DNA from: Streptomyces sp. PCS3-D2
GTDB lineage: Bacteria > Actinomycetota > Actinomycetes > Streptomycetales > Streptomycetaceae
Reading direction: 5' to 3'
Length of the DNA stretch: 64,000 nt
NCBI RefSeq assembly: GCF_000612545.2
Contig: NZ_CP097800.1
Location: 3,159,001-3,223,000 of the forward strand
Under the pieces are notes generated by a model. That model was not told where the DNA came from, did no database searches, and saw nothing but the letters and a program-made list of their open reading frames with translations. The position numbers were made by a program, and so were the translations under genes. Positions 4,253 through 62,414 of this stretch are shown one piece after another (position 1 is the first letter of the stretch; each line of letters opens with the position of its first letter).

Positions 4253-4687
4253 CGCCGGTGCGGAGCCGTGGGACCCCCGTCCGGGTGGGCCGGGGGTCCG
4301 TCCGCGCGCCCGCCCCACCGCCGCCTCCCGGCCCGCTTCCCCGAACCCCGCGCCCCGGACTCCCGGGCCACACCGGAGGGCGCCCCGGGCGGGGCTGAAA
4401 CGGCGCGGCGCCGCCGCTCAGGATCCCCGGACGGGAACCCGGGGTGGGCATCCGGACGGAAATCCGGGGCGGGCGTCCGAGCGGGAATCCAGGCCGCGGA
4501 CGCCGACGCGGCCGGACGGCGCCGGCTCCCGTGGATCCGGAGCTCTGGCTTCCATCAGCTCGGTGTGCGAAAACTCCCCTCGTACGCCCACGTGTTGTCC
4601 CGGCTCTGCCTTCACCGGGACTTAAGGCTGGGATGCTTGGCTGAGTCGGGCAGTACGGGAACGAGTGGACGCGGGAGCTGCTGAGTC
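4253..4687. other. Intergenic region: terminator and degenerate 25-bp tandem repeat
   Basis: A 435-bp gap upstream of the response regulator. After the terminator at 4271-4299 there are three degenerate tandem copies of a 25-bp unit at 4425-4499. No gene is supported. The less GC-rich stretch around 4560-4640 probably holds the regulator promoter, but I cannot pick a -10 with confidence. Confidence 0.6.
4271..4299 (+). terminator. Hairpin terminator after second kinase
   Basis: GGACCCCCG and CGGGGGTCC form a perfect 9-bp stem with an 11-nt loop, 18 nt past the stop codon. No U-tract, as is common in Streptomyces. Confidence 0.65.
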
Positions 4688-23030: not shown

Positions 23031-24643
23031 TTCGCCTCCTCCCCGTTCTTGGCTTCGACGGCGACCTCGGGCTTCGGGTCCGTCTGCTTCACGTCCGACA
23101 TGGTGTGCTCCACCGCCGGGTTGACGACGTCGGTGAGGACCTTCGGGTAGACGCCGAGCCCGATCAGCAGCGCGATCAGCGGGGCGACCACCAGCACTTC
23201 GCGCAGGCGCAGGTCCGGCATCGTGCGGACCTCCTCCTTCACGGGCCCGGTCATCGTGCGCTGGTAGAGCACCAGCGTGTAGAGCGCGGCCAGCACGATG
23301 CCGACGGTGGCGATGATCCCGACGACCGGGTAGCGGGCGTACGTGCCGACCAGGACGAGGAACTCGCTGACGAAGGGCGCGAGGCCGGGCAGCGAGAGGG
23401 TGGCCAGGCCGCCGATCAGGAAGGTCCCGGCGAGGACCGGGGCGACCTTCTGGACGCCGCCGTAGTCGGCGATGAGCCGCGAGCCGCGCCGCGAGATCAG
23501 GAAGCCGGCCACCAGCATGAGCGCCGCCGTCGACAGGCCGTGGTTGACCATGTAGAGGGTGGCGCCGGACTGGCCCTGGGAGGTCATCGCGAAGATGCCC
23601 AGGATGATGAAGCCGAAGTGCGAGATGGAGGCGTAGGCCACCAGCCGCTTGATGTCCCGCTGGCCGACGGCCACCAGCGCCCCGTAGACGATGCTGATCA
23701 GGGCCAGGACGAGGATCACCGGCGTGGCCCACTTGCTGGCGTCGGGGAAGAGTCCGAGACAGAAGCGGAGCATCGCGAAGGTGCCGACCTTGTCGACGAC
23801 CGCGGTGATCAGCACGGCAACGGGGGCGGTGGCCTCGCCCATCGCGTTCGGCAGCCAGGTGTGCAGCGGCCACAGCGGGGCCTTCACCGCGAAGGCGAAG
23901 AAGAAGCCGAGGAACAGCAGCCGCTCGGTGTTGGTCGCCATGTCCAGGGTGCCCGCGGCGCGGGCGGCGGTGATCTCCTGGAGCGAGAAGTTCCCGGCGA
24001 CCACGTACAGGCCGATGACGGCGGCCAGCATGATCAGGCCGCCGACCAGGTTGTAGAGGAGGAACTTGACCGCCGCGTAACTGCGTTGCGCGGCCGCGTT
24101 CTCCTCGCTGCCCGAGTGGGCCCGGTCCCCGAAGCCGCCGATGAGGAAGTACATCGGGATGAGCATGGCTTCGAAGAAGATGTAGAAGAGGAAGACGTCG
24201 GTGGCCTCGAAGGAGATGATCACCATCGCCTCGACCATCAGGATCAGGGCGAAGAAGCCCTGGGTCGGGCGCCAGCGCGAGGGCTTCCAGGTGGCGGAGC
24301 CGCTCACCGGCTCCGCCGGCGGGTCGGCGTCGTGCCAGCCGGCCGCGATCACGAAGGGGATCAGGAGCGCGGTGAGTCCGATGAGGACGACGCCGATCCC
24401 GTCCACGCCCAGCTCGTAGCGGACGCCGAAGTCGGCGATCCAGGGGCGGGATTCGGTGAGCTGGTAGCGGTCGCCACCGGGTTCGAAGCGGATGGCGATG
24501 AGCACGGCCAGGGCCAGTGTCGCCAGCGAGAAGAGCAGCGCGAGCCACTTGGCGGCGGTCCGGCGGGCGGCCGGGACGGCCGCCGTCAGGATCGCGCCGA
24601 CCGCGGGCACCGCGGCCGTGGCCGTCAGAAGCGGGAAGTTCAT
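23027..24643 (-). CDS. nuoM: NADH-quinone oxidoreductase subunit M
   Basis: Second antiporter-like proton-pumping subunit (538 aa). FYIFFEAMLIPMYFLIGGFG contains the conserved glutamate of helix 5, and FAFAVKAPLWPLHTWLPNAM holds the helix-7/8 lysine. VYGALVAVGQRDIKRLVAYA and SISHFGFIILG are further family signatures. It lies between nuoL and nuoN in standard order. A charged C-terminal extension (SDVKQTDPKPEVAVEAKNGE) follows the last helix. ATG at 24643; the 1-nt gap to nuoL indicates coupling. Confidence 0.97.
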   Translation of the reverse strand: MNFPLLTATAAVPAVGAILTAAVPAARRTAAKWLALLFSLATLALAVLIAIRFEPGGDRYQLTESRPWIADFGVRYELGVDGIGVVLIGLTALLIPFVIAAGWHDADPPAEPVSGSATWKPSRWRPTQGFFALILMVEAMVIISFEATDVFLFYIFFEAMLIPMYFLIGGFGDRAHSGSEENAAAQRSYAAVKFLLYNLVGGLIMLAAVIGLYVVAGNFSLQEITAARAAGTLDMATNTERLLFLGFFFAFAVKAPLWPLHTWLPNAMGEATAPVAVLITAVVDKVGTFAMLRFCLGLFPDASKWATPVILVLALISIVYGALVAVGQRDIKRLVAYASISHFGFIILGIFAMTSQGQSGATLYMVNHGLSTAALMLVAGFLISRRGSRLIADYGGVQKVAPVLAGTFLIGGLATLSLPGLAPFVSEFLVLVGTYARYPVVGIIATVGIVLAALYTLVLYQRTMTGPVKEEVRTMPDLRLREVLVVAPLIALLIGLGVYPKVLTDVVNPAVEHTMSDVKQTDPKPEVAVEAKNGEEAK

Positions 24644-24644
24644 G

Positions 24645-26540
24645 TCACACCGCCCTCATCAGCAGGGTCGCGGCGATGAGGATCGCCGTCCCCCCGAACA
24701 TCGAGACCGCGTAGCTGCGGGCGTAGCCGTTCTGCAGCCTGCGCAGTCGGCCCGAGAGACCGCCGACCGAGGCGGCCGTCCCGTTGACCACCCCGTCGAC
24801 CAGGCTGTGGTCGACGTACACGAGGGAGCGGGTCAGGTGCTCCCCGCCGCGCACCAGCACGACGTGGTTGAAGTCGTCCTGGTACAGGTCGCGGCGGGCC
24901 GCCCGGGTGAGGAGGGAGCCGCGCGGGGCGACGACCGGGACGGGCCGCTTGCCGTACATCGCCCACGCGATGCCGACGCCCGCGAGGAGCATCACCATGG
25001 TGGCCGCGGTGACCGTCGTGGCGCTGACCGGCGGGTTGCCGTGCGCGTAGCCGGTGACGGGCTCCAGCCACTTCAGGAAACGCTCGCCGATCTCGAAGAA
25101 GGCACCGGCGAAGACCGATCCGAAGGCGAGGATGACCATCGGGACGGTCATGGACTTCGGGGACTCGTGCGGGTGCGGCTCGTGGCCGTCGGCGGACGGC
25201 TGCCAGCGCTTCTCGCCGAAGAAGGTGAGGAGCATGACGCGGGTCATGTAGAAGGCGGTGATGCCGGCGCCCAGCAGGGTGACCCCGCCGAGGATCCAGC
25301 CCTCGGTGCCGCCCTTCGCGAACGCCGCCTCGATGATCATGTCCTTGGAGAAGAAGCCGGACAGGCCCGGGAAGCCGATGATCGCCAGGTAGCCGAGCCC
25401 GAAGGTGACGAAGGTGACCGGCATGTACTTCCTCAAGGCCCCGTACTTGCGCATGTCGACCTCGTCGTTCATCCCGTGCATCACGGAACCGGCGCCGAGG
25501 AAGAGGCCGGCCTTGAAGAAGCCGTGCGTCACCAGGTGCATGATCGCGAAGACGTAGCCGATCGGGCCGAGGCCCGCGGCGAGGATCATGTAGCCGATCT
25601 GCGACATCGTCGACCCCGCCAGGGCCTTCTTGATGTCGTCCTTCGCGCAACCGACGATCGCACCGAAGAGCAGCGTGACCGCTCCCACGACGGTGACCAC
25701 CAACTGGGCGTCGGGGGCGGCGTTGAAGACCGCGGCGGAGCGGACGATCAAGTAGACGCCGGCGGTCACCATCGTGGCCGCGTGGATGAGGGCCGAGACC
25801 GGGGTCGGGCCCTCCATCGCGTCCCCGAGCCAGGACTGCAGCGGCACCTGAGCCGACTTGCCGCAGGCCGCGAGCAGCAGCATCAGGCCGATGGCGGTGA
25901 GCTTGCCCTCGGAGGCCTCCCCCACCGCGCCGAACACCGGCCCGAAGGCGAAGGTCCCGAAGGTGGTGAACATCAGCATGATCGCGATCGACAGGCCCAT
26001 GTCGCCGACGCGGTTGACCAGGAACGCCTTCTTCGCGGCGGTGGCCGCGCTGGGCTTGTGCTGCCAGAAGCCGATCAGCAGGTACGAGGCGAGGCCCACG
26101 CCCTCCCAGCCGAAGTACAGCAGCAGGTAGTTGTCGGCGAGGACCAGCAGCAGCATGGCCGCGACGAACAGGTTCAGGTAGCCGAAGAAGCGGCGGCGGC
26201 GCTCGTCGTGCTCCATGTACCCGATCGAGTACACGTGAATGAGCGTGCCGACGCCCGAGATCAGCAGGACGAAGGTCATCGACAGCTGGTCCAGCTGGAA
26301 GGCCATGTCCGCCTGGAAGCCCTCGACGGGGATCCAGGTGTACAGCTTCTGGGTCAGCGTCCGGTCCTCGGCGCTGCGCCCCAGCATGTCGGCGAAGAGC
26401 GCGACGCCGATCCCGAAGGAGACGGCCGCGAGCAGGGTGCCGATCCAGTGGCCGGCCTTGTCGAGGCGCCGGCCGCCGCAGAGCAGCACCACCGCTCCGA
26501 GCAGCGGCGCCGCGATCAGCAGCGCAATCAGGTTCTCCAC
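24645..26540 (-). CDS. nuoL: NADH-quinone oxidoreductase subunit L
   Basis: Distal antiporter-like subunit (631 aa) with the long C-terminal helix that runs along the membrane arm. Signatures: [20 protein letters not shown] (helix-5 glutamate), [20 protein letters not shown] (helix-7/8 lysine), [13 protein letters not shown] and [17 protein letters not shown]-type [23 protein letters not shown] at 26540 is preceded by AGGGGT. It is separated from nuoK by only 9 nt. Confidence 0.97.
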
Positions 26541-26549
26541 AGCGACCCC

Positions 26550-26849
26550 TTACAGCTTCATCAGGCTGGCGTCGTCGACCGAGGCCGAGTGGCGGGTACG
26601 GAACAGCGACACGATGATCGCCAGGCCGACCACGACCTCGGCGGCGGCGACGACCATCGTGAAGAAGGCGATGATCTGACCGTCGAGGTTGCCGTGCATC
26701 CGGGAGAACGCGACGAAGGCCAGGTTGCAGGCGTTGAGCATCAGCTCGATGCACATGAACAGCACGATCGCGTTCTTGCGGATCAGCACCCCGACGGCGC
26801 CGATCGTGAACAGCAGGGCCGCCAGGTACAGGTAGTTGACCGGATTCAC
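26550..26849 (-). CDS. nuoK: NADH-quinone oxidoreductase subunit K
   Basis: Small three-helix membrane subunit (99 aa, the family's usual size) homologous to MrpC. Both conserved membrane glutamates are present: in [18 protein letters not shown] and in [19 protein letters not shown]. The GTG start overlaps the nuoJ stop (GTGA). Confidence 0.97.
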
Positions 26850-27652
26850 TTCGAGGCCTCCTCACGGCCGAGGCGCTCCGCCGAACGCTGCTCCAGCGCC
26901 TTGAGGTCGTCGAGCGCCTCGCCGGAGACGTCGCGGACCTGGCCGCGATCGCGCAGCGTCCGGCTGACGGTGAGCTCGGACGGGGTGCCGTCCGGCAGCA
27001 GGCCGGGCACGTCCACCGCGTTGTGGCGGGCGTAGACCCCGGGCGCGGGCAGCGGCGGGAGCTGCACGCCCTCGCGTACGCGGCGCTCGGCCAGCTCGCG
27101 CTGGGTCGCGGCCCGTTCGGTGCGCTCGCGGTGGGTGAGCACCATCGCGCCGACGGCTGCGGTGATCAGCAGAGCGCCGGTGATCTCGAAGGCGAACACG
27201 TACTTGGTGAAGATCAGCTGGGCGAGGCCCTCGACGTGCCCGGCGGAGTTGATCCGGCCGAGCCCGTTGAAGTGGCCCAGCCCGGCGTGGCCGATGCCGG
27301 CGCACAGCAGGATGCCGAAGCCGAGGCCGCACAGGAGGGCCAGCCAGCGCTGCCCCTTGATGGTCTCCTTCAGGGAGTCGGCGGCGGTGACGCCGACGAG
27401 CATGACCACGAAGAGGAAGAGCATCATGATCGCGCCGGTGTAGACGATGACCTGGACGACGCCCAGGAAGTACGCCCCGTTGGCGAGGTAGAAGACCGCC
27501 AGGATGATCATCGTCCCGGCGAGGCTGAGTGCGCTGTGCACGGCCTTCTTCATCAGGATCGTGGCCAGCGCACCGATGACGGCGACGGTGCCGAGGACCC
27601 AGAACTGCACGGCCTCACCGGTGGAGGTGACGGTCGCGGCGATGGCGCTCAT
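26846..27652 (-). CDS. nuoJ: NADH-quinone oxidoreductase subunit J
   Basis: Five-helix membrane subunit (268 aa). The core up to residue about 175 matches NuoJ ([40 protein letters not shown], with the pi-bulge region in the latter). About 90 residues of charged C-terminal extension follow, rich in Arg and Glu, as is common in actinobacteria. The ATG at 27652 overlaps the nuoI stop (ATGA). Confidence 0.96.
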
Positions 27653-28251
27653 GCCCCCACCTCCGCGGTGTTCCCGTCGTCGGAGCCGGCCGGCTCCTCG
27701 CCCTTGGAGACCGCGACCTGCCGGACCGTGCCCGGGGCGGCGCCCGTCACCAGTCCGCGGTAGTAGTCCTGCTCGTCGGTACCGGGGAAGATCGAGTGCG
27801 GCGCCTCGACCATGCCCTCGGTGAGGCCGGCGAGCAGCTGCTCCTTGGTGTAGATGAGGGACTCGCGGCTGGCATCGGCCAGTTCGAACTCGTTCGTCAT
27901 GGTCAGCGCCCGGGTCGGGCACGCCTCGACGCACAGCCCGCACAGGATGCAGCGGGCGTAGTTGATCTGGTAGACCCTGCCGTACCGCTCACCCGGGGAG
28001 TAGCGCTCCTCCTCGGTGTTGTCCGCACCCTCCACGTAGATGGCGTCGGCGGGGCAGGCCCAGGCGCACAGCTCGCACCCGATGCACTTCTCCAGACCGT
28101 CGGGGTGCCGGTTGAGCTGGTGCCGTCCGTGGAAGCGCGGGGCGGTCGTCTTCTGCTGCTCCGGGTACTGCTCGGTGAGGCGCTTCTTGAACATGGCCTT
28201 GAAGGTCACGCCGAAGCCGGCCACCGGATTCTGCCACTTCTCGTCAGACAT
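27649..28251 (-). CDS. nuoI: NADH-quinone oxidoreductase subunit I
   Basis: Ferredoxin-like subunit (200 aa) carrying the two [4Fe-4S] clusters N6a and N6b. Both CxxCxxCxxxCP motifs are intact: [12 protein letters not shown] and [12 protein letters not shown]. The ATG at 28251 ([20 protein letters not shown]) is preferred over an upstream in-frame codon. Its 5' end overlaps the end of nuoH by 8 nt. The C-terminal 60 residues are a hydrophilic extension. Confidence 0.96.
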
Positions 28252-29608
28252 TCTCAGCACCCTCCTCTCGGTCACTGTCGGTGTTCGCGCCGCCACTGAC
28301 GATCAGCTCGCGCTCGTTGCGGGGCCGCCTGCGCGGTACGGGTGCCAGGTGCTGGCCGGGCTTGGGCGGTACGGGGAACCCGCCCGCCAGCGGATCGAAG
28401 GGCGCGGTGTCCCGGCCGGCGTCCGCGGCCGCCGCCTTCTCGCGCTTGTCGCGGAAGACGTCCGCGACGAAGGAGAGCAGCAGGATCGCCACGACGGCGC
28501 CGCCGACGTAGAGGGCGATGTCCGCCATCGCGTAGTTCTCGTTGCGCAGGGCCCGGACGGTGGCGACCATCATCAGCCAGACCACGGAGACCGGGATCAG
28601 GACCTTCCAGCCGAGCTTCATCAGCTGGTCGTAGCGCACGCGGGGCAGCGTGCCGCGCAGCCAGATGAAGAAGAAGAGGAGCAGCTGCACCTTGAGGACG
28701 AACCAGAGGAGCGGCCACCAGCCGTGGTTGGCGCCCTCCCAGAAGGTGCTGATCGGGTACGGGGCCCGCCAGCCGCCGAGGAACAGCGTGACCGAGACCG
28801 CCGAGACGGTGACCATGTTGACGTACTCGGCGAGCATGAACAGCGCGAACTTGATGGACGAGTATTCGGTGTTGAAACCGCCGACCAGGTCGCCCTCGGA
28901 CTCCGGCATGTCGAAGGGGGCGCGGTTGGTCTCGCCGACCATCGTGACGACGTAGATGATGAAGGACACCGGCAGCAGCACGATGAACCAGCGGTCCTGC
29001 TGGGCCTCCACGATCGCCGAGGTCGACATCGACCCGGAGTAGAGGAAGACCGAGGCGAAGGCCGCACCCATCGCGATCTCGTAGGAGATCATCTGCGCGC
29101 AGGAGCGCAGGCCGCCGAGGAGCGGGTAGGTGGAGCCGGAGGACCAGCCGGCGAGGACGATGCCGTAGATGCCGACGGAGGCCACCGCGAGGATGTAGAG
29201 CATCGCGATGGGCAGGTCGGTCAGCTGCATCGAGGTGCGCTGCCCGAAGATGGAGACCTCGTTGCCGGCCGGTCCGAAGGGGATCACCGCGATGGCCATG
29301 AAGGCCGGGATCGCCGCGATGATCGGGGCCAGGACGTACACCACCTTGTCGGCCCGCTTGACGACGATGTCTTCCTTGAGCATCAGCTTCACGCCGTCGG
29401 CGAGCGACTGGAGCATGCCCCAGGGGCCGTGCCGGTTGGGGCCGATGCGCAGCTGCATCCAGGCGACGACCTTGCGCTCCCACACGATGGAGAACAGCAC
29501 CGTCACCATCAGGAAGGCGAAGCAGAACACCGCCTTGACGACGACGAGCCACCAGACGTCCCGTCCGAAGAGGGACAGGTCCTCGGCAGCGAGTTGAACG
29601 GTGTTCAC
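28244..29608 (-). CDS. nuoH: NADH-quinone oxidoreductase subunit H
   Basis: Eight-helix subunit (454 aa) at the junction of the two arms, forming part of the quinone chamber. Conserved features: [60 protein letters not shown] and [20 protein letters not shown] (acidic quinone-site loop). A hydrophilic C-terminal tail of about 70 residues is rich in Pro and Arg. GTG start at 29608 overlaps the nuoG stop (GTGA). Confidence 0.97.
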
Positions 29609-32109
29609 GCGCCCACCTCCGCAGTGGTGTCGCCTGCGCCGGCCGGGGTCGCCGGGCCGATGCGTACGAGGGTGCCCGGGCGGGCTCCGGCGTCGGCGAG
29701 GACGCCGGAGCCGGTGGAGTTCAGCGGGAGCCAGACGACGCGGTCGGGCATCTCGGCGATCCGGAGCGGGAGTTCCACCGTGCCGGCGGGGCCGGTGACC
29801 GCGAGGACGTCGCCCTCCTTGACGCCCGTCTCGGTGGCCGTGGCGGCCGACAGCCGGGCTGCGGCCTCGTGCCGGGTACCGGCCAGGGCCTCGTCGCCCT
29901 CCTGGAGCAGGCCCCGGTCCAGCAGGAGCCGGTGACCGGCGAGGACCGCCTCGCCGACGCCCGGACGGGGCAGCGGCACCGGGTCGGTGGACTGCTCGGC
30001 GGCGAGCGCGCCCTCCCAGGGGCCGAGCCGCTCCAGTTCGCGGCGTACGGCGTGCACGTCGGGCAGGTCGATCGGCCGGTCGGCGGCGTCGGCCAGCATG
30101 TGCAGCACGCGGGCGTCGGCCGGGGCGAGCCGGCGGGTCATCTGGTCGGGCTTGAGCGCGGCCTCGAAGGGCCGGACGCGCCCTTCCCAGTTGATGAACG
30201 CGCCCGCCTTCTCGGCGACCGCGGCGACCGGCAGGACCACGTCCGCGTGGTCGGTGACCTCGCCGGGCCGCAGTTCCAGGGAGACCACGAAGGCCTCCTT
30301 GAGGGCGGTCCGCGCGCGGGCCGGGTCCGGCAGGTCGGTGACCTCCACACCCGCGACCAGCAACGCGGACAGTTCCCGGGTGGCCGCCGCCTCGACGATC
30401 TGGCCGGTGTCGCGGCCGTAGCGGTGCGGGAGTTCGTCCAGGCCCCAGGCGGTGGCGACCTCGTCGCGGGCCCGCGGGTCGGTGGCCGGACGGCCGCCCG
30501 GCAGCAGGGACGGCAGGGCGCCGGCCTCGACGGCCGCCCGCTCCCCGGCCCGGCGCGGGATCCACACGAGCTTCGCCCCGGTGGCGGCGGCCGCCCGTAC
30601 GGCGGCGGTCAGCGCACCGGGCACACCGGCGAGGCGCTCTCCGACGACGATGACGGCGCCCGGTGCGCGCAGCGCCTCGGCGGCCTCCGCGCCGCCCGCC
30701 TCCAGGCCGGTCCGCGAGGACAGCGCGTCGAGCCAGTCGGGCTCGGTGCCGGGAGCGGCCGCCAGGAGGGTGCCGCCGGCCTTCTGAAGTCCGCGGGTGG
30801 CGAAGGGGGCCAGGGCGAAGGTCCGCTGCTTGGACCTGCGGTGGGCCTTGCGCAGCCGCAGGAAGACCCCGGGGGCCTCCTCCTCGGCCTCGATGCCGGC
30901 GAGCAGCACCGCGGGCGCCGCCTCCAGCGAGGTGTAGGTGACGCCGTCGCCGTCGAGGTCCTTGCCGGTGCCGGCGACGGTGGCGGCCAGGAAGTCGGCC
31001 TCCTCCGCGCTGTGCACGCGGGCCCGGAAGTCGATGTCGTTGGTGTCGAGCACGACCCGGGCGAACTTGGCGTAGGCGTAGGCGTCCTCGACGGTGAGCC
31101 GGCCGCCGGTGAGCACTCCGGCCCGGCCGCGTGCGGCGGCGAGCCCGTTCGCGGCGGCCTCCAGGGCCTCGGGCCAGCTCGCCGGTTCCAGGACCCCGGC
31201 GGCGCTGCGCACCAGCGGGGTGGTCAGGCGGTCCGGGCGCTGTGCGTAGCGGAACCCGAAGCGGCCCTTGTCGCAGACCCATTCCTCGTTGACCTCGGGG
31301 TCCTCCGCGGCGAGGCGCCGCAGCACCTTGCCGCGCCGGTGGTCGGTACGGGTCGCGCAGCCGCCCGCGCAGTGCTCGCACACGCTCGGGGAGGAGACGA
31401 GGTCGAAGGGGCGGGAGCGGAACCGGTACGCGGCCGAGGTGAGGGCACCGACCGGGCAGATCTGGATGGTGTTGCCGGAGAAGTACGACTCGAAGGGATC
31501 GCCCTCGCCGATGCCGACCTGCTGGAGTGCGCCGCGCTCCAGGAGCTCGATCATCGGGTCGCCTGCGATCTCGTTGGAGAAGCGGGTGCAGCGGGCGCAC
31601 AGGACGCACCGCTCCCGGTCGAGCAGGACCTGCGGGGAGATCGGGACGGGCTTCTCGTAGGTCCGCTTCCTGCCCTCGAAGCGGGACTCGGCGTTGCCGT
31701 GCGACATCGCCTGGTTCTGCAGCGGGCACTCGCCGCCCTTGTCGCAGACGGGGCAGTCCAGCGGGTGGTTGATGAGCAGCAGCTCCATCACCCCGCGCTG
31801 GGCCTTGTCGGCGACCTCGGAGGTCAGCTGGGTCCTGACGACCATGCCGTCGGTGCAGGTGATGGTGCAGGAGGCCATCGGCTTGCGCTGGCCCTCGACC
31901 TCGACGATGCACTGGCGGCAGGCGCCGGCGGGGGGAAGGAGGGGGTGGTCGCAGAACCGGGGGATCTCGATGCCGAGTTGTTCGGCGGCGCGGATGACGA
32001 GGGTGCCCTTGGGCACCGAGAGCTCGGCTCCGTCGATGGTCAGCGAGACCAGGTCCTCCGGCGGGACGGCGGGTTCCCCTCCGGAGGCGGCCGTAGTGGT
32101 GACGGTCAT
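29605..32109 (-). CDS. nuoG: NADH-quinone oxidoreductase subunit G
   Basis: Large peripheral-arm subunit (834 aa) of the molybdopterin-oxidoreductase fold without molybdenum. The N-terminal 2Fe-2S domain is seen in [16 protein letters not shown]; the His-ligated cluster N5 in [15 protein letters not shown]4 in CVLCARC with CPVGAL. An additional C-x2-C-x3-C set (CEHCAGGC) plus a later Cys (VCDKGRFGF) would bind the extra cluster N7, which only some bacteria keep. ATG at 32109, a few bases into the nuoF stop. Confidence 0.97.
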
Positions 32110-33482
32110 GCGTTCACCTCCGTGTCGGCCCAGAGGGTCGACTTCCTGGGGTCGAAGGGGCAGCCCTTGCCCGTGATGTGCTGCTCGTACTCCTCGCGGA
32201 AGTACTTCAGCGAGGAGAAGATCGGGCTGGCCGCGCCGTCACCGAGCGCGCAGAAGGACTTGCCGTTGATGTTGTCGGCGATGTCGTTCAGCTTGTCGAG
32301 GTCGGACATGACGCCCTTGCCGGCCTCGATGTCGCGGAGCAGCTGGACCAGCCAGTACGTGCCTTCGCGGCAGGGAGTGCACTTGCCGCAGGACTCGTGC
32401 GCGTAGAACTCGGTCCACCGGGTGACGGCCCGCACCACGCAGGTGGTCTCGTCGAAGCACTGGAGGGCCTTGGTGCCGAGCATCGACCCGGCGGCGCCGA
32501 CGCCCTCGTAGTCCAGGGGGACGTCGAGGTGCTCGTCGGTGAACATCGGGGTGGAGGATCCGCCCGGGGTCCAGAACTTCAGCCGGTGCCCGGGCCGCAT
32601 GCCGCCGCTCATGTCGAGGAGCTGGCGCAGGGTGATGCCGAGCGGGGCCTCGTACTGGCCGGGTCCGGCGACGTGCCCGGAGAGCGAGTACAGGGTGAAG
32701 CCGGGGGACTTCTCCGTCCCCATCGCCTTGAACCAGTCCTTGCCCCGGTTCAGGATCGCGGGAACCGAGGCGATGGACTCGACGTTGTTGACGACAGTGG
32801 GGCACGCGTAGAGCCCCTCGACGGCGGGGAAGGGGGGTCGCAGCCGGGGCTGGCCGCGCCGGCCTTCGAGGGAGTCGAGCAGTGCCGTCTCCTCGCCGCA
32901 GATGTACGCGCCCGCGCCCGCGTGCACCGTGATGTCGAGGTCGAGCCCGCTGCCGAGGATGTTCCTGCCGAGGTATCCGGACGCGTACGCCTCGCGCACC
33001 GCCTCGTGCAGGCGCCGCAGGACCGGTACGACCTCGCCGCGCAGGTAGATGAAGGCGTGCTGGGAGCGGATCGCGTAGCAGGCGATGATCATTCCCTCGA
33101 TGAGGGAGTGCGGGTTGGCGAAGAGGAGGGGGATGTCCTTGCAGGTTCCCGGCTCCGACTCGTCCGCGTTGACCACGAGGTAGTGCGGCTTTCCGTCGCC
33201 CTGCGGGATGAACTGCCACTTCATCCCGGTGGGGAAGCCGGCTCCGCCGCGTCCGCGCAGGCCCGAGTCCTTCACGTAGGCGATGAGGTCGTCCGGGGTC
33301 ATCGCGAGGGCCTTGCGCAGGCCCTCGTAGCCCTCGTGGCGCCGGTAGGTCGCCAGCGTCCACGATTCGGGTTCGTCCCAGAAGGCCGACAGGACGGGCG
33401 CGAGGAGCTTCTCCGGGCTGGTCCCTCCCCCGGCCTCCGGCCGGGAGGTACCCCCGTTGCTCAGTTCAGAGGACACGGACAT
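32106..33482 (-). CDS. nuoF: NADH-quinone oxidoreductase subunit F
   Basis: NADH-oxidising subunit (458 aa) binding NADH, FMN and cluster N3. [13 protein letters not shown] and [18 protein letters not shown] are the NADH/FMN sites, [19 protein letters not shown] the flavin loop, and [12 protein letters not shown] plus the Cys in [10 protein letters not shown] the four cluster ligands. The ATG at 33482 shares one base with the nuoE stop (TGATG). Presence of E, F and G shows this operon encodes a genuine NADH-linked complex. Confidence 0.97.
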
Positions 33483-34237
33483 CACTCCCCTCCCTCGGTG
33501 GTGCTCTCGCCGCGCGGGTGGACGATCGGGGGGTGCGGGGGCTCGCCGCGGGCGATGCGCAGCCCGATCAGGGAGGCGGGGCCGGCCCCGCCGGTGGCCT
33601 CGACCGCGCCCGCGCGCTCGTCCGGGAAGCCGGCCAGGATCCGGGCCGTCTCCTTGTAGGTGCACAGGGGTGCGCCCCGGGTCGGCGAGACCTCGCGGCC
33701 GGCCAGCAGGTCGTCGACCATGGCCTTGGCGGACTCGGGGGTCTGGTTGTCGAAGAACTCCCAGTTGACCATCACCACGGGGGCGTAGTCGCAGGCGGCG
33801 TTGCACTCGATGTGTTCGAGGGTGATCCTGCCGTCGGCGGTGGTCTCGTTGTTGCCGACCCCGAGGTGCTCCTTGAGCTCCTCGAAGATGGCGTCGCCGC
33901 CCATGACCGCGCACAGGGTGTTGGTGCAGACGCCGACCTGGTAGTCGCCCGAGGGCTTGCGCCGGTACATCGTGTAGAAGGTGGCGACGGCGGTCACCTC
34001 GGCCGTGGTCAGGCCGAGCATCTCGGCGCAGAAGCGCACCCCGGTCCGGGAGACGTGGCCCTCCTGCGACTGGCACAGGTGCAGCAGCGGGAGGAGCGCG
34101 GAGCGGCTGTCCGGGTAGCGGGCGATGATCTCCTTCGCGTCCGCTTCGAGGCGGGTCCGTACCTCCGCCGGGAAGTCGGGGGCGGGCAGCTGGGGCATGC
34201 CCAGCGCGACCCCTTGGTTCTGAGGACTGGCGGTCAT
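33482..34237 (-). CDS. nuoE: NADH-quinone oxidoreductase subunit E
   Basis: Thioredoxin-fold subunit (251 aa) with the [2Fe-2S] cluster N1a. Ligands are in [12 protein letters not shown] (Cx4C) and [15 protein letters not shown] (Cx3C). The upstream helical domain ([16 protein letters not shown]) is standard. The C-terminus is extended by about 60 residues relative to the shortest homologues. The ATG at 34237 overlaps the nuoD stop (ATGA). Confidence 0.96.
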
Positions 34238-35559
34238 CGGTCGACGCCTCCCATCACGGGGTCGATGGAGGCGACGGCGACGATGACGTCGGCGACCTGG
34301 CCGCCCTCGCACATCGCGGCCATGGCCTGCAGGTTGGTGAAGGACGGATCGCGGAAGTGGACCCGGTAGGGGCGGGTCCCGCCGTCGGAGACGACGTGGA
34401 CGCCCAGCTCGCCCTTGGGGGACTCGACGGCGGCGTAGGCCTGTCCGGCCGGCACCCGGAAGCCCTCGGTCACCAGCTTGAAGTGGTGGATGAGGGCCTC
34501 CATGGAGGTGCCCATGATGTTCCTGATGTGGTCGAGCGAGTTGCCGAGCCCGTCGGGGCCCATGGCCAGCTGCGCCGGCCAGGCGATCTTCTTGTCGGCG
34601 ACCATCACCGGTCCGGGCTCCAGCCGCTCCAGGCACTGCTCGATGATCCGCAGCGACTGGCGCATCTCCTCCAGGCGGATCAGGAAGCGCCCGTAGGAGT
34701 CGCAGGTCTCGGTGGTCGGCACGTCGAACTCGTAGGTCTCGTAGCCGCAGTACGGGTCCGACTTGCGCAGGTCGTGCGGCAGGCCGGCGGAGCGCAGGAT
34801 CGGGCCGGTGGCGCCCAGGGCCATGCAGCCGGAGAGGTCGAGGTAGCCGACGTCCTGCATGCGGGCCTTGAAGATGGGATTGCCGGTGGCGAGTTTGTCG
34901 TACTCCGGCAGGTTCTTCTTCATGGTCTTCACGAACTCGCGCAGCTGGTCGACGGCGCCCGGCGGGAGGTCCTGCGCGAGGCCGCCGGGGCGGATGAACG
35001 CGTGGTTCATGCGCAGTCCGGTGATCAGCTCGTAGAGGTCGAGGATCAGCTCGCGGTCGCGGAAGCCGTAGATCATGATCGTGGTCGCGCCCAGCTCCAT
35101 GCCGCCGGTGGCGATGCACACCAGGTGGGAGGAGAGCCGGTTGAGCTCCATCAGCAGGACGCGGACGACGGTGGCCCGGTCCGGGATCTGGTCGGTGATG
35201 CCGAGCAGTCGCTCGACGCCGAGGCAGTACGCCGTCTCGTTGAAGAACGGCGTCAGGTAGTCCATGCGCGTGACGAAGGTGGTGCCCTGTGTCCAGTTGC
35301 GGAATTCGAGGTTCTTCTCGATTCCGGTGTGGAGGTAGCCGATGCCGCAGCGGGCCTCGGTGACGGTCTCGCCGTCGATCTCCAGGATCAGCCGGAGCAC
35401 ACCGTGGGTGGAGGGGTGCTGCGGACCCATGTTGACGACGATCCGCTCGTCGTCGGCCCTGGCCGCCGACTGGACGATCTCGTCCCAGTCGCCGCCGGTG
35501 ACGGTGTAAACGGTTCCCTCGGTCGTCTCGCGAGCGGAGGAGTGGTTGGACGTGGACAT
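34234..35559 (-). CDS. nuoD: NADH-quinone oxidoreductase subunit D
   Basis: 49-kDa-type subunit (441 aa) forming the quinone-binding cavity with Nuo[21 protein letters not shown] holds the conserved His of the quinone site, and [31 protein letters not shown] and the C-terminal DPVMGGVDR are family hallmarks. The ATG at 35559 overlaps the nuoC stop by one base (TGATG). Confidence 0.97.
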
Positions 35560-36305
35560 CAGCTGTACGACCTCCGCTGGTCGGGAGCCGGGATCTGGGC
35601 GCCCTTGTACTCGACGGGGATGCCGCCGAGCGGGTAGTCCTTGCGCTGCGGGAACCCCTGCCAGTCGTCCGGCATCATGATCCGGGTGAGGGCCGGGTGC
35701 CCGTCGAAGACCAGGCCGAAGAAGTCGTACGCCTCGCGCTCGTGCCAGTCGTTGGTCGGATAGACGGAGACGAGCGAGGGGACGTGCGGGTCGCTGTCGG
35801 GGACGGACACCTCCAGCCGCAGGATCCGGCCGTGGGTGAGCGAGCGCAGGTGGTAGACGGCGTGCAGCTCGCGGCCCTTGTCCCCGGGGTAGTGGACTCC
35901 GGAGACCCCGGTGCAGAGCTCGAAGCGCAGGGCGGGGTCGTCGCGCAGGGTGCGTGCGACGCGCGCGAGGTGCTCCCGGGCGATGTGGAAGGTGAGCTCG
36001 CCCCGGTCGACCACGGTCTTCTCGATGGCGTTCTCCGGTACCAGGTCCTGCTCCTCCAGGGCGCCTTCGAGCTCGTCGGCCACCTCGTCGAAGTACGAGC
36101 CGTACGGGCGGGAGGACGCGCCGGGCAGGGCCACGGTGCGGACCAGGCCGCCGTAGCCGCTGGTGTCACCGCCGTTCGCCGCGCCGAACATGCCCGTGCG
36201 GACGCCGATGACCTCGGGGCCCTGGGCGCGCGGCGCGGGCAGGCCGCCGCCCGTGTCGGTCGCGGCGGCGTCGTTGCCGTGGTCGGGCTCTTGGGTCTCG
36301 CTCAC
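35559..36305 (-). CDS. nuoC: NADH-quinone oxidoreductase subunit C
   Basis: 30-kDa-type subunit (248 aa). The signature [20 protein letters not shown] is present, with GIPVEYKG near the C-terminus. About 60 N-terminal residues, rich in Gly, Ala and Asp, precede the conserved fold. GTG start at 36305, overlapping the nuoB stop (GTGA). Confidence 0.96.
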
Positions 36306-36856
36306 CGGAGCAGCCCCTTCATCTCAATGGTGGGGAGGGCCTTGAGGGCCGCCGCCTCCGCCTCGCGGGCCGCTTCCTCCCGGTTCACACCGAGCTTTCC
36401 GCCCTGGATCTTCTGGTGGAGCTTGAGGATCGCGTCCATCAGCATCTCGGGGCGGGGCGGGCAGCCGGGGAGGTAGATGTCCACCGGGACGATGTGGTCG
36501 ACGCCCTGGACGATCGCGTAGTTATTGAACATTCCGCCTGAAGATGCACAAACCCCCATGGAGATCACCCATTTGGGAGCGGGCATCTGGTCGTACACCT
36601 GGCGCAGCACCGGCGCCATCTTCTGGCTGACCCGTCCGGCGACGATCATCAGGTCGGCCTGGCGCGGGGAGCCGCGGAAGACCTCCATGCCGAAGCGGGC
36701 CAGGTCGTACCGGCCCGCTCCGGTCGTCATCATCTCGATGGCGCAGCAGGCGAGGCCGAACGTCGCCGGAAAGACGGACGACTTGCGCACCCATCCCGCG
36801 GCCTGTTCGACGGTGGTCAGCAGGAAGCCGCTCGGCAGCTTCTCTTCCAGTCCCAT
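36302..36856 (-). CDS. nuoB: NADH-quinone oxidoreductase subunit B
   Basis: PSST-type subunit (184 aa) with cluster N2. [20 protein letters not shown] supplies the tandem cysteines, [19 protein letters not shown] a third and [14 protein letters not shown] the fourth. The ATG at 36856 is 14 nt from nuoA. This is the standard complex I copy; compare nuoB2. Confidence 0.97.
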
Positions 36857-36870
36857 GGGAATTCAGCCCC

Positions 36871-37230
36871 TCAGTCCCATTCCAGGCCGCCGCGGCGCCA
36901 GACGTAGGCGTAGGCGACGAAGACGGTGAGCACGAAGAGCAGCATCTCGACGAGCCCGAAGATCCCCAGGGAGTCGAAGGTGACGGCCCAGGGGTAGAGG
37001 AAGACAACCTCGATGTCGAAGACGATGAAGAGCATCGCCGTCAGGTAGTACTTGATGGGGAAGCGACCGCCACCGGCCGGCATCGGCGTCGGCTCGATGC
37101 CGCATTCATAGGCGTCGAGCTTCGCCCGGTTGTACCTTTTTGGACCGATCAGCGTGGCCATGACCACGGAGAAGATCGCAAACCCTGCGCCGAGGGCGCC
37201 GAGCACGAGGATGGGCGCGTACGCATTCAC
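36871..37230 (-). CDS. nuoA: NADH-quinone oxidoreductase subunit A
   Basis: Three-helix membrane subunit (119 aa), first gene of the fourteen-gene operon. The YECGIEPTP motif sits in the loop after helix 1, and FDIEVVFLYPWAV is the conserved acidic helix 2. The GTG at 37230 follows GGAGCGAGGAGC directly; the longer open frame to 37332 is rejected because it would run into the operator region. Confidence 0.96.
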   Translation of the reverse strand: MNAYAPILVLGALGAGFAIFSVVMATLIGPKRYNRAKLDAYECGIEPTPMPAGGGRFPIKYYLTAMLFIVFDIEVVFLYPWAVTFDSLGIFGLVEMLLFVLTVFVAYAYVWRRGGLEWD

Positions 37231-37332
37231 GCTCCTCGCTCCTTCCAGTCGTCCTGGACCGTTGGACCGCGGCCGGCCGGGCCCCTCCCAGCGGTAGCGG
37301 GGGGCGTGCCCCGCCTCGCGAAGATCGTGCAC

Positions 37333-59160: not shown

Positions 59161-60021
59161 ATGAGCTTGGACAGCAGTGACGGTACGGAAGAGCCCGGCT
59201 GGGACGTCGACCCGGAGGACGAACAGGGCGCGGCGGTGGTGGCCGCGCTGGGCCGCCAGCTCAAGGCGTGGCGGGAGTCGGCCGGCCTACGGCCCGCCGA
59301 TTTCGGGGCGGCCATCCAGTACGGGGAGGACCAGGTCCGCAAGGTCGAGGCGGGCAAGCGGATCCCCCGCCCCGAGTACCTGGACAGGGCGGATGAAGCG
59401 CTGAACGCGGGCGGCAAGATCGCCGCCATGAAGGCCGACCTGGAACAGGTCCGCTACCCGAAGAAGGTGCGGGACCTGGTGAAGCTGGAAGGCCGAGCGG
59501 TCGAACTGTCGGCTTACGGCAACCACAACATCCATGGCTTGTTGCAGACGGACGACTATGCGCGGGCCCTGTTCGAGATGTGGCAGCCTCCGCAGACGAT
59601 GGAAGAGGTCGAACGCGGTTTGGCCGCACGGATGGCGCGGCGGTCGATCTTCGAGCGGAGCCCCGCACCCGCTCTGTGCTTCGTCCAGGAAGAGGTGACC
59701 CTACGGCGCCGCATCGGGGGGACAATGGTGATGCGTGGTCAGCTCGAACGTCTGCTGGAGATTGCCGAGCTGCGGCACGTCACGATCCAGGTCATGCCCA
59801 CCCATCTCGAAGAGCACGCCGGAATGGGCGGGTTGATCCAACTGTTGAAATTCGCGGACGGATCGGCGGTGGGGCGTTCCGAAGGGGCCTTCAACGGCCG
59901 CCCCGTCTCAGATCCGAGGCAGGTCCGGATCCTTGAGCAATGCCATGCCATGATCCGATCCCAGGCTCTCACGCCACGGGAGTCCGTCGCATTCATCGAG
60001 CAAGTGCTGGGAGAGACATGA
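59161..60021 (+). CDS. WhiJ-like XRE-family regulator (DUF5753)
   Basis: DNA-binding protein of 286 aa. The XRE helix-turn-helix occupies about residues 26-80 (LGRQLKAWRESAGLRPADFG and DQVRKVEAGKRIP). The C-terminal DUF5753 follows (GLLQTDDYARALFEMWQPPQ, RQEILERSPAP-like RRSIFERSPAPALCFVQEEV, LRHVTIQVMPTHLEEHAGMG). The family includes WhiJ and many paralogues that influence development or antibiotic production. ATG at 59161; the stop overlaps the DUF397 start (ATGA). Confidence 0.92.
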   Translation: MSLDSSDGTEEPGWDVDPEDEQGAAVVAALGRQLKAWRESAGLRPADFGAAIQYGEDQVRKVEAGKRIPRPEYLDRADEALNAGGKIAAMKADLEQVRYPKKVRDLVKLEGRAVELSAYGNHNIHGLLQTDDYARALFEMWQPPQTMEEVERGLAARMARRSIFERSPAPALCFVQEEVTLRRRIGGTMVMRGQLERLLEIAELRHVTIQVMPTHLEEHAGMGGLIQLLKFADGSAVGRSEGAFNGRPVSDPRQVRILEQCHAMIRSQALTPRESVAFIEQVLGET

Positions 60022-60209
60022 TCCACGAGCCCGAGCCGGAGTGGTTCAAAAGCAGCTACAGCGACAGCGGCGACATCAACGACTGCGTCGAGGTGGCCAC
60101 CACCCCCCGCGCGGTCCTGGTCCGCGACTCCAAGGACACCTTGCGCGCCCACCTGGCCTTCGGCCACCCCGCCTGGGAAGGGTTTGTCGCACACGCGTCC
60201 GGCCTGTGA
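60018..60209 (+). CDS. DUF397 protein
   Basis: Small acidic protein of 63 aa with the typical DUF397 pattern: EPEWFKSSYSDSGDINDCVE, then VLVRDSKD. It is translated by coupling with the XRE gene (ATGA). In WhiJ-type systems the DUF397 protein is thought to modulate the partner regulator. Confidence 0.93.
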   Translation: MIHEPEPEWFKSSYSDSGDINDCVEVATTPRAVLVRDSKDTLRAHLAFGHPAWEGFVAHASGL

Positions 60210-60271: not shown

Positions 60272-60709
60272 ATGTCGTTCGACGCGGAATGGGCGGAGCA
60301 CAAAGCCCTCGCCCGGTCGGCGCCGGCACCCGCGCCAGACCCGGTACCGGCGCCCGGGGCGGGCGGTGACGGTCCGGCCGGGGCGCTGGTGGCCACGGCT
60401 TCGTCCCTCAACGGGAATGCGAACCTCCTGATCGAGATCGCCGCGCTGCTCCACGAGGGCCGCCCCGACGGCGACGCGAGCACCATGGCGCGCGCCCCGC
60501 GCGCCCATGCCGACGTGGCCGCACAGACCCTCCGCTTCGCCGCGTTCGCCGACGACCAGTTCAAGGACACCGTCGCCCTCTTCGCCGGGCTCGCCACCCG
60601 CCTCAAGACCGCCGGCACGAGCTTCGCCGAGGTGGACGACGACACCGCCCGGTCCTTCCTGGCCGGCCTCCTCGACTCGGGGCGGTACGTGCCGCCGGAG
60701 TGCAAGTGA
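60272..60709 (+). CDS. WXG100-like/ESX-type helical protein
   Basis: Protein of 145 aa. MSFDAEWAEHKALARS is a start seen in Streptomyces T7-secretion-associated proteins. A Pro/Ala linker follows, then two long amphipathic helices (ANLLIEIAALLHEGRPDGDA and VALFAGLATRLKTAGTSFAE) and an acidic end (EVDDDTARSFLAGLLDSGRY). The layout matches WXG100 or PE-like secretion partners, but no central WxG is present. ATG at 60272 follows GGGGGA. The stop overlaps the next gene (GTGA), so the two are made together. Confidence 0.6.
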   Translation: MSFDAEWAEHKALARSAPAPAPDPVPAPGAGGDGPAGALVATASSLNGNANLLIEIAALLHEGRPDGDASTMARAPRAHADVAAQTLRFAAFADDQFKDTVALFAGLATRLKTAGTSFAEVDDDTARSFLAGLLDSGRYVPPECK

Positions 60710-62097
60710 GCAGGGGGATCAGCCACCGCGAGGACGTCGCGTTCCTGGAGGAGTGCAGTCCGCCGCTCATCGAGCGCAACGCCGCCGAGTTCCGCCGTCT
60801 GCGCGACCTCCTGGTGCAGGTCGGAGAGCCGGCCCGGCGCGCGGAGACCCGTACCGAGTGGGAGAGCGAAGGCAGCCACACGTACACCGAGCGCCTCACC
60901 GAGGCCCGGCTGCTGGTGGCCCAGATGGCCGAAGGCTACGACAGGGCCGCCAGCGCCCTGAACGCCTACGCCGCCGCCGTCACCACCGCGACGTCCCACT
61001 ACCGCAACGGCAAGCACACCGAACGGGCGCTCGCGGCGCTCATCGGCACCAAGGGCGTGGCGGTCACCGAGGCCGCGCGGGCGGCGGAGCCCATGCGGCG
61101 GTGGGAGGACATGCGGGCCACGACCGGATTCCTCGACTTTCTGGCCGAGGTCACCCTGGACGTCGACGACATCCGGGAGGAGGCGGACCGGCTCCACGAC
61201 GCGGCGGGCGGCAGCTTCCATCTCGCGAAGACCGTGGAGGAGGAGGCCCGCGCCACGTGCGTCCACGCGCTGAAACAGGCATACGGGCTGCTCCCCGAGT
61301 TCAGGGTGCCGGACGGCGGCGCACGGCCCGACCTGTACGCGGCGATGGCGGACATCCGCCGGGAGGCGGCGGAGGCCGCCGCCTCTCCGCTGACCCGCCT
61401 GCCCGGCAGCGGCCCGAAGCGGGAGACGGCGCCGGCGGTCGGCGACGCCGAGATGTCACCCGCGCTGCGTGACATCCGGATGCGGATCTCGTCTCTGCCT
61501 GTGGCGGACGACAGCTACTGGGACCCTCCGGGCGACGACGAGGAGCGGGCCCGCTGGATCTCCCGCAACAAGGAGCTGCTGCGGGCCGCCGCGGGGCATG
61601 CCGGACTGCCCGAGGAACTCGTCGCGGGGATCGCCTGGAAGGAGATCGGCGGGCAGTACGGACTCACCGACGACCTCACCGACACCCTGCGCGGCGCGGC
61701 CGCCTCGCCGCTGAGCCCCCTCTCGCCGCGGGACCTGCCGTGGCGGCTGGGCGGGATGCCCGACGAGACCTCGTTCGGGCCGCTCGCGATCCAGCTGCGC
61801 CGGGGCGCCGAGGTGCTCGGCTACGATCCGGCGCACCTCACGCGGGCCCAGCGGGACCTGGTGGAGGAGTCGCTCCAGGATCCGAAGCAGAATGCGTTCA
61901 TCGCTGCGGGCCATCTGGCCCGGCTCAAGGCCGAGGCGGGGTACGGCGACGTGCCGGCGGAGCGGCTGACCGAGACCCAGATGCGGGAGATCGCCGCCCG
62001 CTACAACGGCGGCCCGTACTGGCGGTCGGGCAAGGCCCAGGACTACGGCGATGGCTTCGGCGACGCTCTCGGCAAGGTGAAGGACGCGATGGGATGA
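60706..62097 (+). CDS. Putative secreted effector: helical N-terminus with muramidase/transglycosylase-like C-terminus
   Basis: Protein of 463 aa. The N-terminal 200 residues are helical with a WxxxG turn (TEWESEGSHTYTERLTEARL), as in LXG/WXG-type secreted proteins. The C-terminal part (about 300-463) has the landmarks of a lysozyme-like fold: putative catalytic Glu313 in AGIAWKEIGG, ETSFGPLAIQLRRGAEVLG near residues 354-372 (compare the GLMQ motif), DPKQNAFIAAGHLARLK, and ARYNGGPYW (compare AYNAG). No signal peptide, so export would need a type VII-like route. GTG start overlaps the upstream gene; the stop overlaps the downstream gene (ATGA). Function is inferred. Confidence 0.65.
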   Translation: MSRGISHREDVAFLEECSPPLIERNAAEFRRLRDLLVQVGEPARRAETRTEWESEGSHTYTERLTEARLLVAQMAEGYDRAASALNAYAAAVTTATSHYRNGKHTERALAALIGTKGVAVTEAARAAEPMRRWEDMRATTGFLDFLAEVTLDVDDIREEADRLHDAAGGSFHLAKTVEEEARATCVHALKQAYGLLPEFRVPDGGARPDLYAAMADIRREAAEAAASPLTRLPGSGPKRETAPAVGDAEMSPALRDIRMRISSLPVADDSYWDPPGDDEERARWISRNKELLRAAAGHAGLPEELVAGIAWKEIGGQYGLTDDLTDTLRGAAASPLSPLSPRDLPWRLGGMPDETSFGPLAIQLRRGAEVLGYDPAHLTRAQRDLVEESLQDPKQNAFIAAGHLARLKAEAGYGDVPAERLTETQMREIAARYNGGPYWRSGKAQDYGDGFGDALGKVKDAMG

Positions 62098-62414
62098 CAG
62101 ACGGCAGCGGGACCATCGTCCCGCCCGCGGACCGCGGCTGGGCGCGCCGGGTGCTCGGGCTCCTCCTCGCCCTCGTGCACGCCCTGAACGCCGTGCTCGT
62201 CTACGCCGTCGTGTCCCGCGGGCCGCAGGCCTCATGGGACCACCAGGGGTACGAGGGCACGGCCGCGGCCGTCTTCCTCTCCCTCTGCCTGAGCGCGCTC
62301 GGGCTCCTGATCACGCTCGCCCCACCCGTCCGCAGGCTGCTGGGCCCGTGGTGGCTCGCGCCGCCGCTCGTTCTGGGGGTGATCGCATGGGTTCGCATCG
62401 AGACGCTCGGCTGA
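62094..62414 (+). CDS. Three-helix membrane protein, possible immunity protein
   Basis: Protein of 106 aa with three hydrophobic helices: LGLLLALVHALNAVLVYAVV, AAAVFLSLCLSALGLLITLA and LAPPLVLGVIAWVRI. The N-terminus is short and polar. It overlaps the effector-like gene by 4 nt (ATGA), so expression is coupled. A small membrane protein immediately after a peptidoglycan-active effector is the usual place for immunity, but no sequence motif proves it. Confidence 0.65.
   Translation: MTDGSGTIVPPADRGWARRVLGLLLALVHALNAVLVYAVVSRGPQASWDHQGYEGTAAAVFLSLCLSALGLLITLAPPVRRLLGPWWLAPPLVLGVIAWVRIETLG

Follow-up and report, generated by a model that had tools for sequence, protein, structure and literature searches.

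In the mycobacterial ESX secretion systems, PE/PPE and EspC/EspA proteins form pairs with a characteristic gene order; to our knowledge, the substrates of the Streptomyces ESX are poorly known and its role is poorly defined. LXG toxins have Lap partner proteins and immunity genes (PMC9600955), TelC/TipC act outside the membrane (PMC6193138), and both tandem and orphan immunity genes of the type VII secretion system (T7SS) have been described (PMC9484751). An actinobacterial T7SS alarmone-synthetase effector is accompanied by a targeting factor and an immunity open reading frame (ORF) (PMC12691689), and a survey of polymorphic toxins mentions FlgJ-type wall-acting toxin domains (PMC3482391). 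The subject of this report is a cassette of three genes, A, B and C, in a stretch of 64,000 nucleotides from Streptomyces sp. PCS3-D2 (contig NZ_CP097800.1, positions 3,159,001 to 3,223,000 of the forward strand), called the window here, in which positions are counted from the first letter. Probably the A-B-C cassette serves the ESX (type VIIa) system of Streptomyces as an antibacterial effector unit, consisting of an export partner (A), a wall-cutting toxin (B) and an immunity protein (C). The sequence-only reading of the locus had offered an effector with its partner and immunity protein as one explanation, and this is now supported by weak family matches, a conserved [FY]xxx[DE] motif in A, the C genes found where B is missing and, in the same genome, an ESX locus. 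The cassette would give the Streptomyces ESX a specific cargo that can be put to the test.

Linkage and distribution of the cassette

The three plus-strand genes each overlap the next, with a GTGA junction between A and B (at 60706) and an ATGA junction between B and C (at 62094), both read directly in the sequence, as the sequence-only reading had reported (Table 1). Their third-position guanine-cytosine content of 0.92 (A), 0.93 (B) and 0.94 (C) makes all three look coding, and B has an alternative in-frame GTG upstream, at 60700. This arrangement is well conserved. Among 32 distinct loci with an intact B in a first sample, A lies directly upstream at 32 and C directly downstream at 30, and the corresponding figures for a second sample of 19 distinct intact loci are 19/19 and 17/19; the second sample was drawn from 297 Streptomycetaceae genomes with flanks of 1.5 kb, so that an A or C lying further away could escape notice. 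With both samples merged (47 distinct loci, four of them shared, with identical B), A is present at 47/47 and C at 43/47, and the flanking genes are thus not routinely absent from homologous loci. The genome samples throughout are even draws, not complete, and related genomes within them are not independent.

Matches to B, ranging from full length down to fragments, were found in 22 of 150 Streptomyces genomes, that of the window included. A profile of the toxin domain matched 31/297 Streptomycetaceae genomes, in 4/17 genera, and a single genome in a phylum-wide sample (1/396), the window's own; near full-length B is also carried on two Streptomyces plasmids. This distribution bears on the suggestion, also made in the sequence-only reading, that the genes form a developmental or self-lysis unit that remodels the wall during programmed hyphal death or at the sporulation septum. 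Streptomyces do remodel their walls during development, and the window copy adjoins an XRE/DUF5753 and DUF397 regulator pair. The pair is seen at only some homologous loci, however, so that the core cassette is A-B-C, and a match to B is missing from 128/150 Streptomyces genomes. Because the cassette is patchy, often broken and in two cases plasmid-borne, and also in view of the export-signal features and the C genes without B described below, a developmental function is not supported and appears very improbable.

At locus L066 (5989-7382) two overlapping open frames of 241 and 223 amino acids take the place of B, which is divided at the linker so that carrier and toxin are apart. This could reflect either a frame error or natural fission; a tandem pair of C genes lies downstream. 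Two other classes of system were considered and rejected: A, B and C gave no PADLOC match to a known defence system at an expectation (E) value up to 1, and the toxin domain had no match in 50,697 phage records at E 0.01, which sets aside a phage lysis module.

Table 1. Features of the A-B-C cassette and its upstream neighbour, in window coordinates
Feature	Position	Strand	Remarks
Gene A	60272-60709	+	ATG start; 145-amino-acid helical protein, proposed export partner of B
Gene B	60706-62097	+	GTG start; 463-amino-acid protein, proposed effector
Gene C	62094-62414	+	ATG start; 106-amino-acid membrane protein, proposed immunity protein
F118-A-E-V-D122 of A	60623..60637	+	[FY]xxx[DE] motif; resembles T7SS export arm
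B residues 1-210, putative helical trafficking domain	60706..61335	+	hairpin H19-49 / H55-116 in model
Trp52 codon of B	60859..60861	+	invariant, W-x-[SG] in 19 B rows; at hairpin turn, between H19-49 and H55-116 of model
B residues 280-463, SLT/Tse3-like toxin domain	61543..62094	+	modelled fold
Glu313 of B	61642-61644	+	predicted catalytic acid; invariant in 19 aligned rows, window included
ETSFGP motif of B, residues 354-359	61765..61782	+	TSxG in 19/19 rows; 6/7 Gram-negative rows
RYNGG motif of B, residues 432-436	61999..62013	+	19/19 Streptomyces rows; RYNRG in 7/7 Gram-negative rows
XRE/DUF5753 regulator and DUF397 gene	59161..60209	+	upstream of A

The predicted toxin domain of B

The C-terminal part of B has a modelled fold of the lysozyme/SLT type: of the 50 matches listed, 26 cover this part, and every one of them is either a lytic transglycosylase or Tse3, a muramidase effector. 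The lysozyme-fold landmarks that had been picked out by eye (Glu313, ETSFGP and ARYNGG) lie at the residues given for them, and the first of these aligns with the Glu of the 'AIESGG' segment of MltE/EmtA (weak profile match, E 0.24). A profile search of solved structures returned EmtA/MltE and Tse3 at E 0.24-0.37, and a search of solved structures with the single sequence gave chance matches only. The domain is best read, on the strength of its model, as lytic-transglycosylase/Tse3-like, with a predicted peptidoglycan-cutting activity.

The Streptomyces rows carry Glu-[IV]-[GSA] in place of the Glu-Ser signature of ordinary SLT rows, and the profile match to those ordinary domains is weak. Both observations would suit a toxin-immunity cassette with another target, in which the SLT-like fold is retained and the enzyme attacks some other glycan, or the domain inhibits wall synthesis rather than cutting. 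Such a target seems improbable given that the fold matches listed for this domain are all lytic transglycosylases or Tse3, and that the Glu and the RYN-x-G motif are conserved from Streptomyces to Gram-negative proteins.

Candidate export signals in A and B and the ESX locus

Part of the evidence for an ESX substrate consists of weak family matches. Among 19 aligned B proteins, Pfam reports T7SS_signal in 7 (best 1.3e-4) and WXG100 in 5 (best 8.4e-5), together with weak EspA_EspE matches; B of the window itself scores 12.3 bits for EspA_EspE (cut-off 27) and has no PPE match. The families LXG, DUF3130 and DUF3958 are absent from the complete match lists (19 B rows, E up to 1; 21 A rows, E up to 10), and membership of the LXG effectors was rejected; of the two families that the sequence-only reading had named for a profile search of the N-terminus, WXG100 has weak matches and LXG none. 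The N-terminal Pro-Glu and Pro-Pro-Glu motifs of PE and PPE proteins were not seen in the A and B sequences as read. Likewise, and as previously remarked, no signal peptide is visible in B by inspection of the sequence, no predictor having been run.

The first gene had been called WXG-like. A is not a canonical WXG100 protein; it is weakly EspC/PE-like, and the WXG-type Trp resides in B, as Trp52-Glu-Ser. Although A of the window has no Pfam family match, 4 of 21 A rows match EspC (best 7e-5), one PE and one WXG100, and the [FY]xxx[DE] motif is present in all 21. A comparable FxxxD in the DUF3130/Lap1 partners of LXG toxins is required for export, which its mutation is reported to abolish (PMC9600955). 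Across the 150 Streptomyces genomes, strong matches to A (E <1e-40) are confined to those with B, and the remaining matches are weak, with E 3e-6 to 9e-5, apart from one fragment in genome G085 (E 3e-12). A and the N-terminus of B show no profile homology to each other.

The profile of the B N-terminus matched 27/150 Streptomyces genomes, 18 with the B family and 9 with weak matches only, in other proteins. Seven of these nine weak matches fall in open frames of about 1490-1650 residues. Pfam scans of three of the nine proteins showed two to be RHS giants, with WXG100_2 or T7SS_signal above the cut-off, and the third, of 414 amino acids, to have T7SS_signal below it. The exchange of effector C-termini across Streptomyces that the sequence-only reading had thought worth a survey was not seen with this profile in the 150 genomes. 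Streptomyces giants of about 1550-1600 amino acids at loci L107, L108, L110, L112 and L113 directly follow a gene of 214-238 amino acids. The one scanned, at L110, combines T7SS_signal with RHS repeats, and its upstream neighbour of the 214-238 class has no Pfam match. These upstream genes could possibly represent a partner family for the giant toxins.

The window genome encodes an EccB over the profile cut-off and, beside it, an FtsK/SpoIIIE ATPase and two WXG100 genes recognized by profile; EccD-, MycP- and EccE-like genes at the same locus are named by position and reading only.

C as a candidate immunity protein

The description of C as a three-helix membrane protein agrees with the three hydrophobic segments (residues 22-40, 57-75 and 82-100) that a simple scan finds in the window copy. 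Over 25 homologues the scan finds three segments in 17 and two in 8, and an invariant Pro and an invariant Asp lie in the loop between the first two segments, a loop that the distribution of charges would place outside the membrane. No Pfam family is above cut-off for C of the window, and 2/25 rows have holin matches.

The distribution of C fits an immunity role. C occurs in 39/150 Streptomyces genomes, 20 with a B match and 19 without, where the latter means none at E 1e-5 using a single B sequence; one of these 19 (G013) has a toxin-tip remnant detectable by profile. All 15 genomes with a near full-length B in this sample also have C. Twenty C loci without an intact B were inspected, of which 16 come from 14 of the 19 genomes that have no B match and the other 4 are additional copies in genomes that do carry B. 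A is found at none of the twenty and a toxin-tip remnant at one. Tandem C copies occur at several loci, and at L051 a second toxin tip (residues 415-462) is followed by a second C. Decay of B tells a similar story. Among 19 broken B loci, C alone is left at 13, A alone at 1, both at 2 and neither at 3, such that C is kept at 15/19 and A at 3/19 (exact p 0.0018, a guide only because the broken loci are related). Not included in this count are G001, which lies at a contig end, G652, which has no locus, and L066, with its B in two frames. G016, which is in both samples, was counted once, and the flanks of G007, G044 and G071 were judged from the places of the matches. Locus L165 has the same flanks as L057 and has C without the A-B block (about 5471-7416 in L057), and L156 compared with L051 likewise has only C at that place; in both cases a loss of A-B, rather than its original absence, would account for the difference.

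A function in the producer's own secretion has to be weighed against these patterns. Gram-positive secretion systems can need wall-opening enzymes, and a lytic-transglycosylase-type fold would suit one. In this view an ESX-exported B would open local holes in the wall of the producer itself, either to let the secretion machine through or to allow exchange between hyphae, C would tether or restrain it, and no rival would be killed. B is patchy (22/150 genomes), however, compared with EccB (136/150), and a tether does not explain why B is often decayed with C kept or why C occurs without a B match in 19/150 genomes. Homologues that sit next to Hcp genes or within polymorphic proteins, described below, also speak against a wall opener, which we regard as unlikely, and an immunity protein remains the preferred identity for C.

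Two further observations concern the variety of C. Loci L053, L054, L055 and L057 have near-identical toxin domains followed by different C types (59%, 56%, 41% and 38% identity to C of the window, respectively), a pattern that recombination between tandem C copies, or protection by more than one C type, could produce. At L049 (9374-10228) and L046 (4462-5805) a broken B fragment and a C match lie within one open frame, possibly a fusion of a toxin remnant with the membrane protein.

Relatives of the toxin domain in Gram-negative bacteria

The toxin domain is not restricted to Streptomyces. A protein search of plasmids found it in three Cronobacter records and in one each from Serratia, E. coli and Nostoc, and the Streptomyces and Gram-negative domains align by hhalign at 99.8% (E 6e-28); the domain also matches phrog_11932 (E 4.9e-12). 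The E. coli and Serratia copies each neighbour a DUF2645 gene, and an annotated Hcp gene adjoins the two; at L072 (4845-5894), the E. coli homologue has an Hcp gene on one side and ygiZ (DUF2645) on the other. Two of the Cronobacter records were opened, and in both a small protein with three hydrophobic segments comes after the toxin domain, without an annotated Hcp gene in the vicinity. The hydropathy of the Gram-negative membrane proteins resembles that of C, with three segments in 6/7 rows. The Nostoc plasmid protein (L071, 1164-5636) has 1491 amino acids, with the toxin domain as its C-terminus. Eight viral contigs also carry the domain, of which five were read: at L119, L122 and L123 a small gene comes straight after the toxin gene, with an Hcp-like gene by reading at L122 and L123, and L116 and L121 end at the toxin gene. 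Near the window cassette no Hcp gene was recognized by eye among the surrounding called genes, no Hcp profile having been run.

A toxin-domain gene is present in 1253/5426 E. coli genomes (at least 80% of the gene in one place), labelled 'hypothetical protein' in 8/8 of the matches listed, one of them interrupted by IS1. ygiZ is commoner, at 4549/5426 by the same measure (at least 80% in one place), an excess that parallels the C genes without B. We lean, by a modest degree, toward the view that one mobile toxin-domain lineage arms unrelated machines, and that a small multi-pass membrane guard outlives the toxin in Streptomyces and enterobacteria. The machines would be ESX in Streptomyces, through a PE/PPE-like carrier, an Hcp-linked type VI secretion system (T6SS) in enterobacteria and the prophages they carry, and in Nostoc a polymorphic giant. 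If the guard does outlive the toxin, then most E. coli genomes would hold, in ygiZ, an orphaned immunity gene directed against a wall-cutting effector, and ygiZ may indeed have this role. Were this view true, the Streptomyces cassette would be an antibacterial wall-targeting effector of ESX. The findings also predict a function for ygiZ/DUF2645 and offer a case of one toxin domain in both type VI and type VII contexts. The literature collection searched has no paper with the term DUF2645 and none joining ygiZ, immunity and Hcp.

Proposed mechanism and its weighing

In the favoured reading, A and the N-terminal hairpin of B would pair in the cytoplasm in the manner of PE/PPE or EspC/EspA, and the pair would present a two-part export signal, to which B contributes Trp52 at its hairpin turn and A contributes [FY]xxx[DE], close to where its long helix ends. 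The A-B pair would then be exported by ESX, and the C-terminal domain of B, a putative Tse3/lytic-transglycosylase-like muramidase with Glu313 as its acid, would cut the peptidoglycan of neighbouring hyphae or of other Gram-positive cells. C, sitting in the membrane with its first loop outside, would block the enzyme at the cell surface and so protect the producer and its kin.

Several results weigh against this reading. The family scores of the window B are below their Pfam cut-offs, at 11.9 bits (cut-off 21.3) for SLT and 18.6 bits (cut-off 27) for T7SS_signal, and profile comparison with eight ordinary actinobacterial SLT domains is weak (5.5% and 2.6%). Among the fold matches listed for the N-terminus of B only 4/24 are PPE, the other 20 being unrelated helical proteins at the same Z score, and Foldseek returned nothing at E 0.001 or better. 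The AlphaFold model of A alone is helical and of low confidence, with a predicted local distance difference test (pLDDT) score of 57, too poor for a fold search, and the copy of A in G048 has an internal stop. The cassette does not adjoin the ESX genes, which are about 1.1 Mb away, and EccB, present in 22/22 genomes with a B match, provides no test because it is found in 136/150 genomes anyway. Four of the 47 intact loci (L068, L069, L207 and L220) have A and B without an adjacent C, and for L068 and L069 no C was found anywhere in the records by a search that had no positive control. At the inspected C loci a gene is called at 17/20 and not at the other 3, and C shows no profile homology to the Gram-negative DUF2645-like membrane proteins (0.2%).

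Within the window, the gene 3' of C is convergent and would be a symporter by reading of the sequence only, and a minus-strand run at 21375-37332, judged from its start sequences only, resembles a nuo (complex I) operon.

Comparison with known systems

The cassette resembles the T7SSb LXG loci (lap1-lap2-telC/telD-tip; PMC9600955, PMC6193138) in its small helical partner encoded upstream, helical toxin N-terminus and downstream immunity gene, and in the FxxxD-type motif on the partner (PMC9600955); as for TelC, the proposed action is outside the membrane with a membrane-anchored immunity protein (PMC6193138). It differs in having one partner rather than two, an actinobacterial ESX, a muramidase-like toxin and no LXG, DUF3130 or DUF3958 match, and also in C, which is short, multi-pass and devoid of any large soluble domain. 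With the T7SS-linked exported alarmone synthetases of Streptomyces and Amycolatopsis the cassette shares a T7SS N-terminus, predicted in the case of B, an upstream gene for a targeting factor (for which A is the candidate) and a small downstream putative-immunity ORF; these enzymes are reported to be (p)ppGpp synthetases toxic in the cytoplasm (PMC12691689), whereas B is predicted to act on the wall and C is a membrane immunity candidate.

Tse3-Tsi3 of Pseudomonas differs in that Tse3 is delivered by a T6SS and has 15% identity to B, and no Hcp-like gene was recognized by eye at the cassette. The phrog_11932 proteins of enterobacteria, paired with DUF2645/ygiZ, have a homologous toxin domain, and the small membrane protein that comes after it resembles C in hydropathy; unlike B they are without a T7SS N-terminus and stand beside an Hcp gene where annotated, and the membrane proteins are not homologous by profile. 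In the PE/PPE and EspC/EspA pairs, as in A-B, the partner gene precedes that of a longer helical protein, a W-x-G-type turn is found on one protein and a YxxxD/E-type motif on the other, and the likeness extends to weak Pfam EspC/PE and EspA_EspE matches and to PPE chains among the fold matches. A-B differs from these pairs in being without the N-terminal PE/PPE motif, in the toxin domain attached to B and in the immunity gene downstream. Because the T7SS frame of toxin, partner and immunity protein is published, and no title on the A-B-C family was among those that the literature searches listed, A-B-C is filed as a new family of an already published kind, a T7SS effector with its partner and immunity protein.

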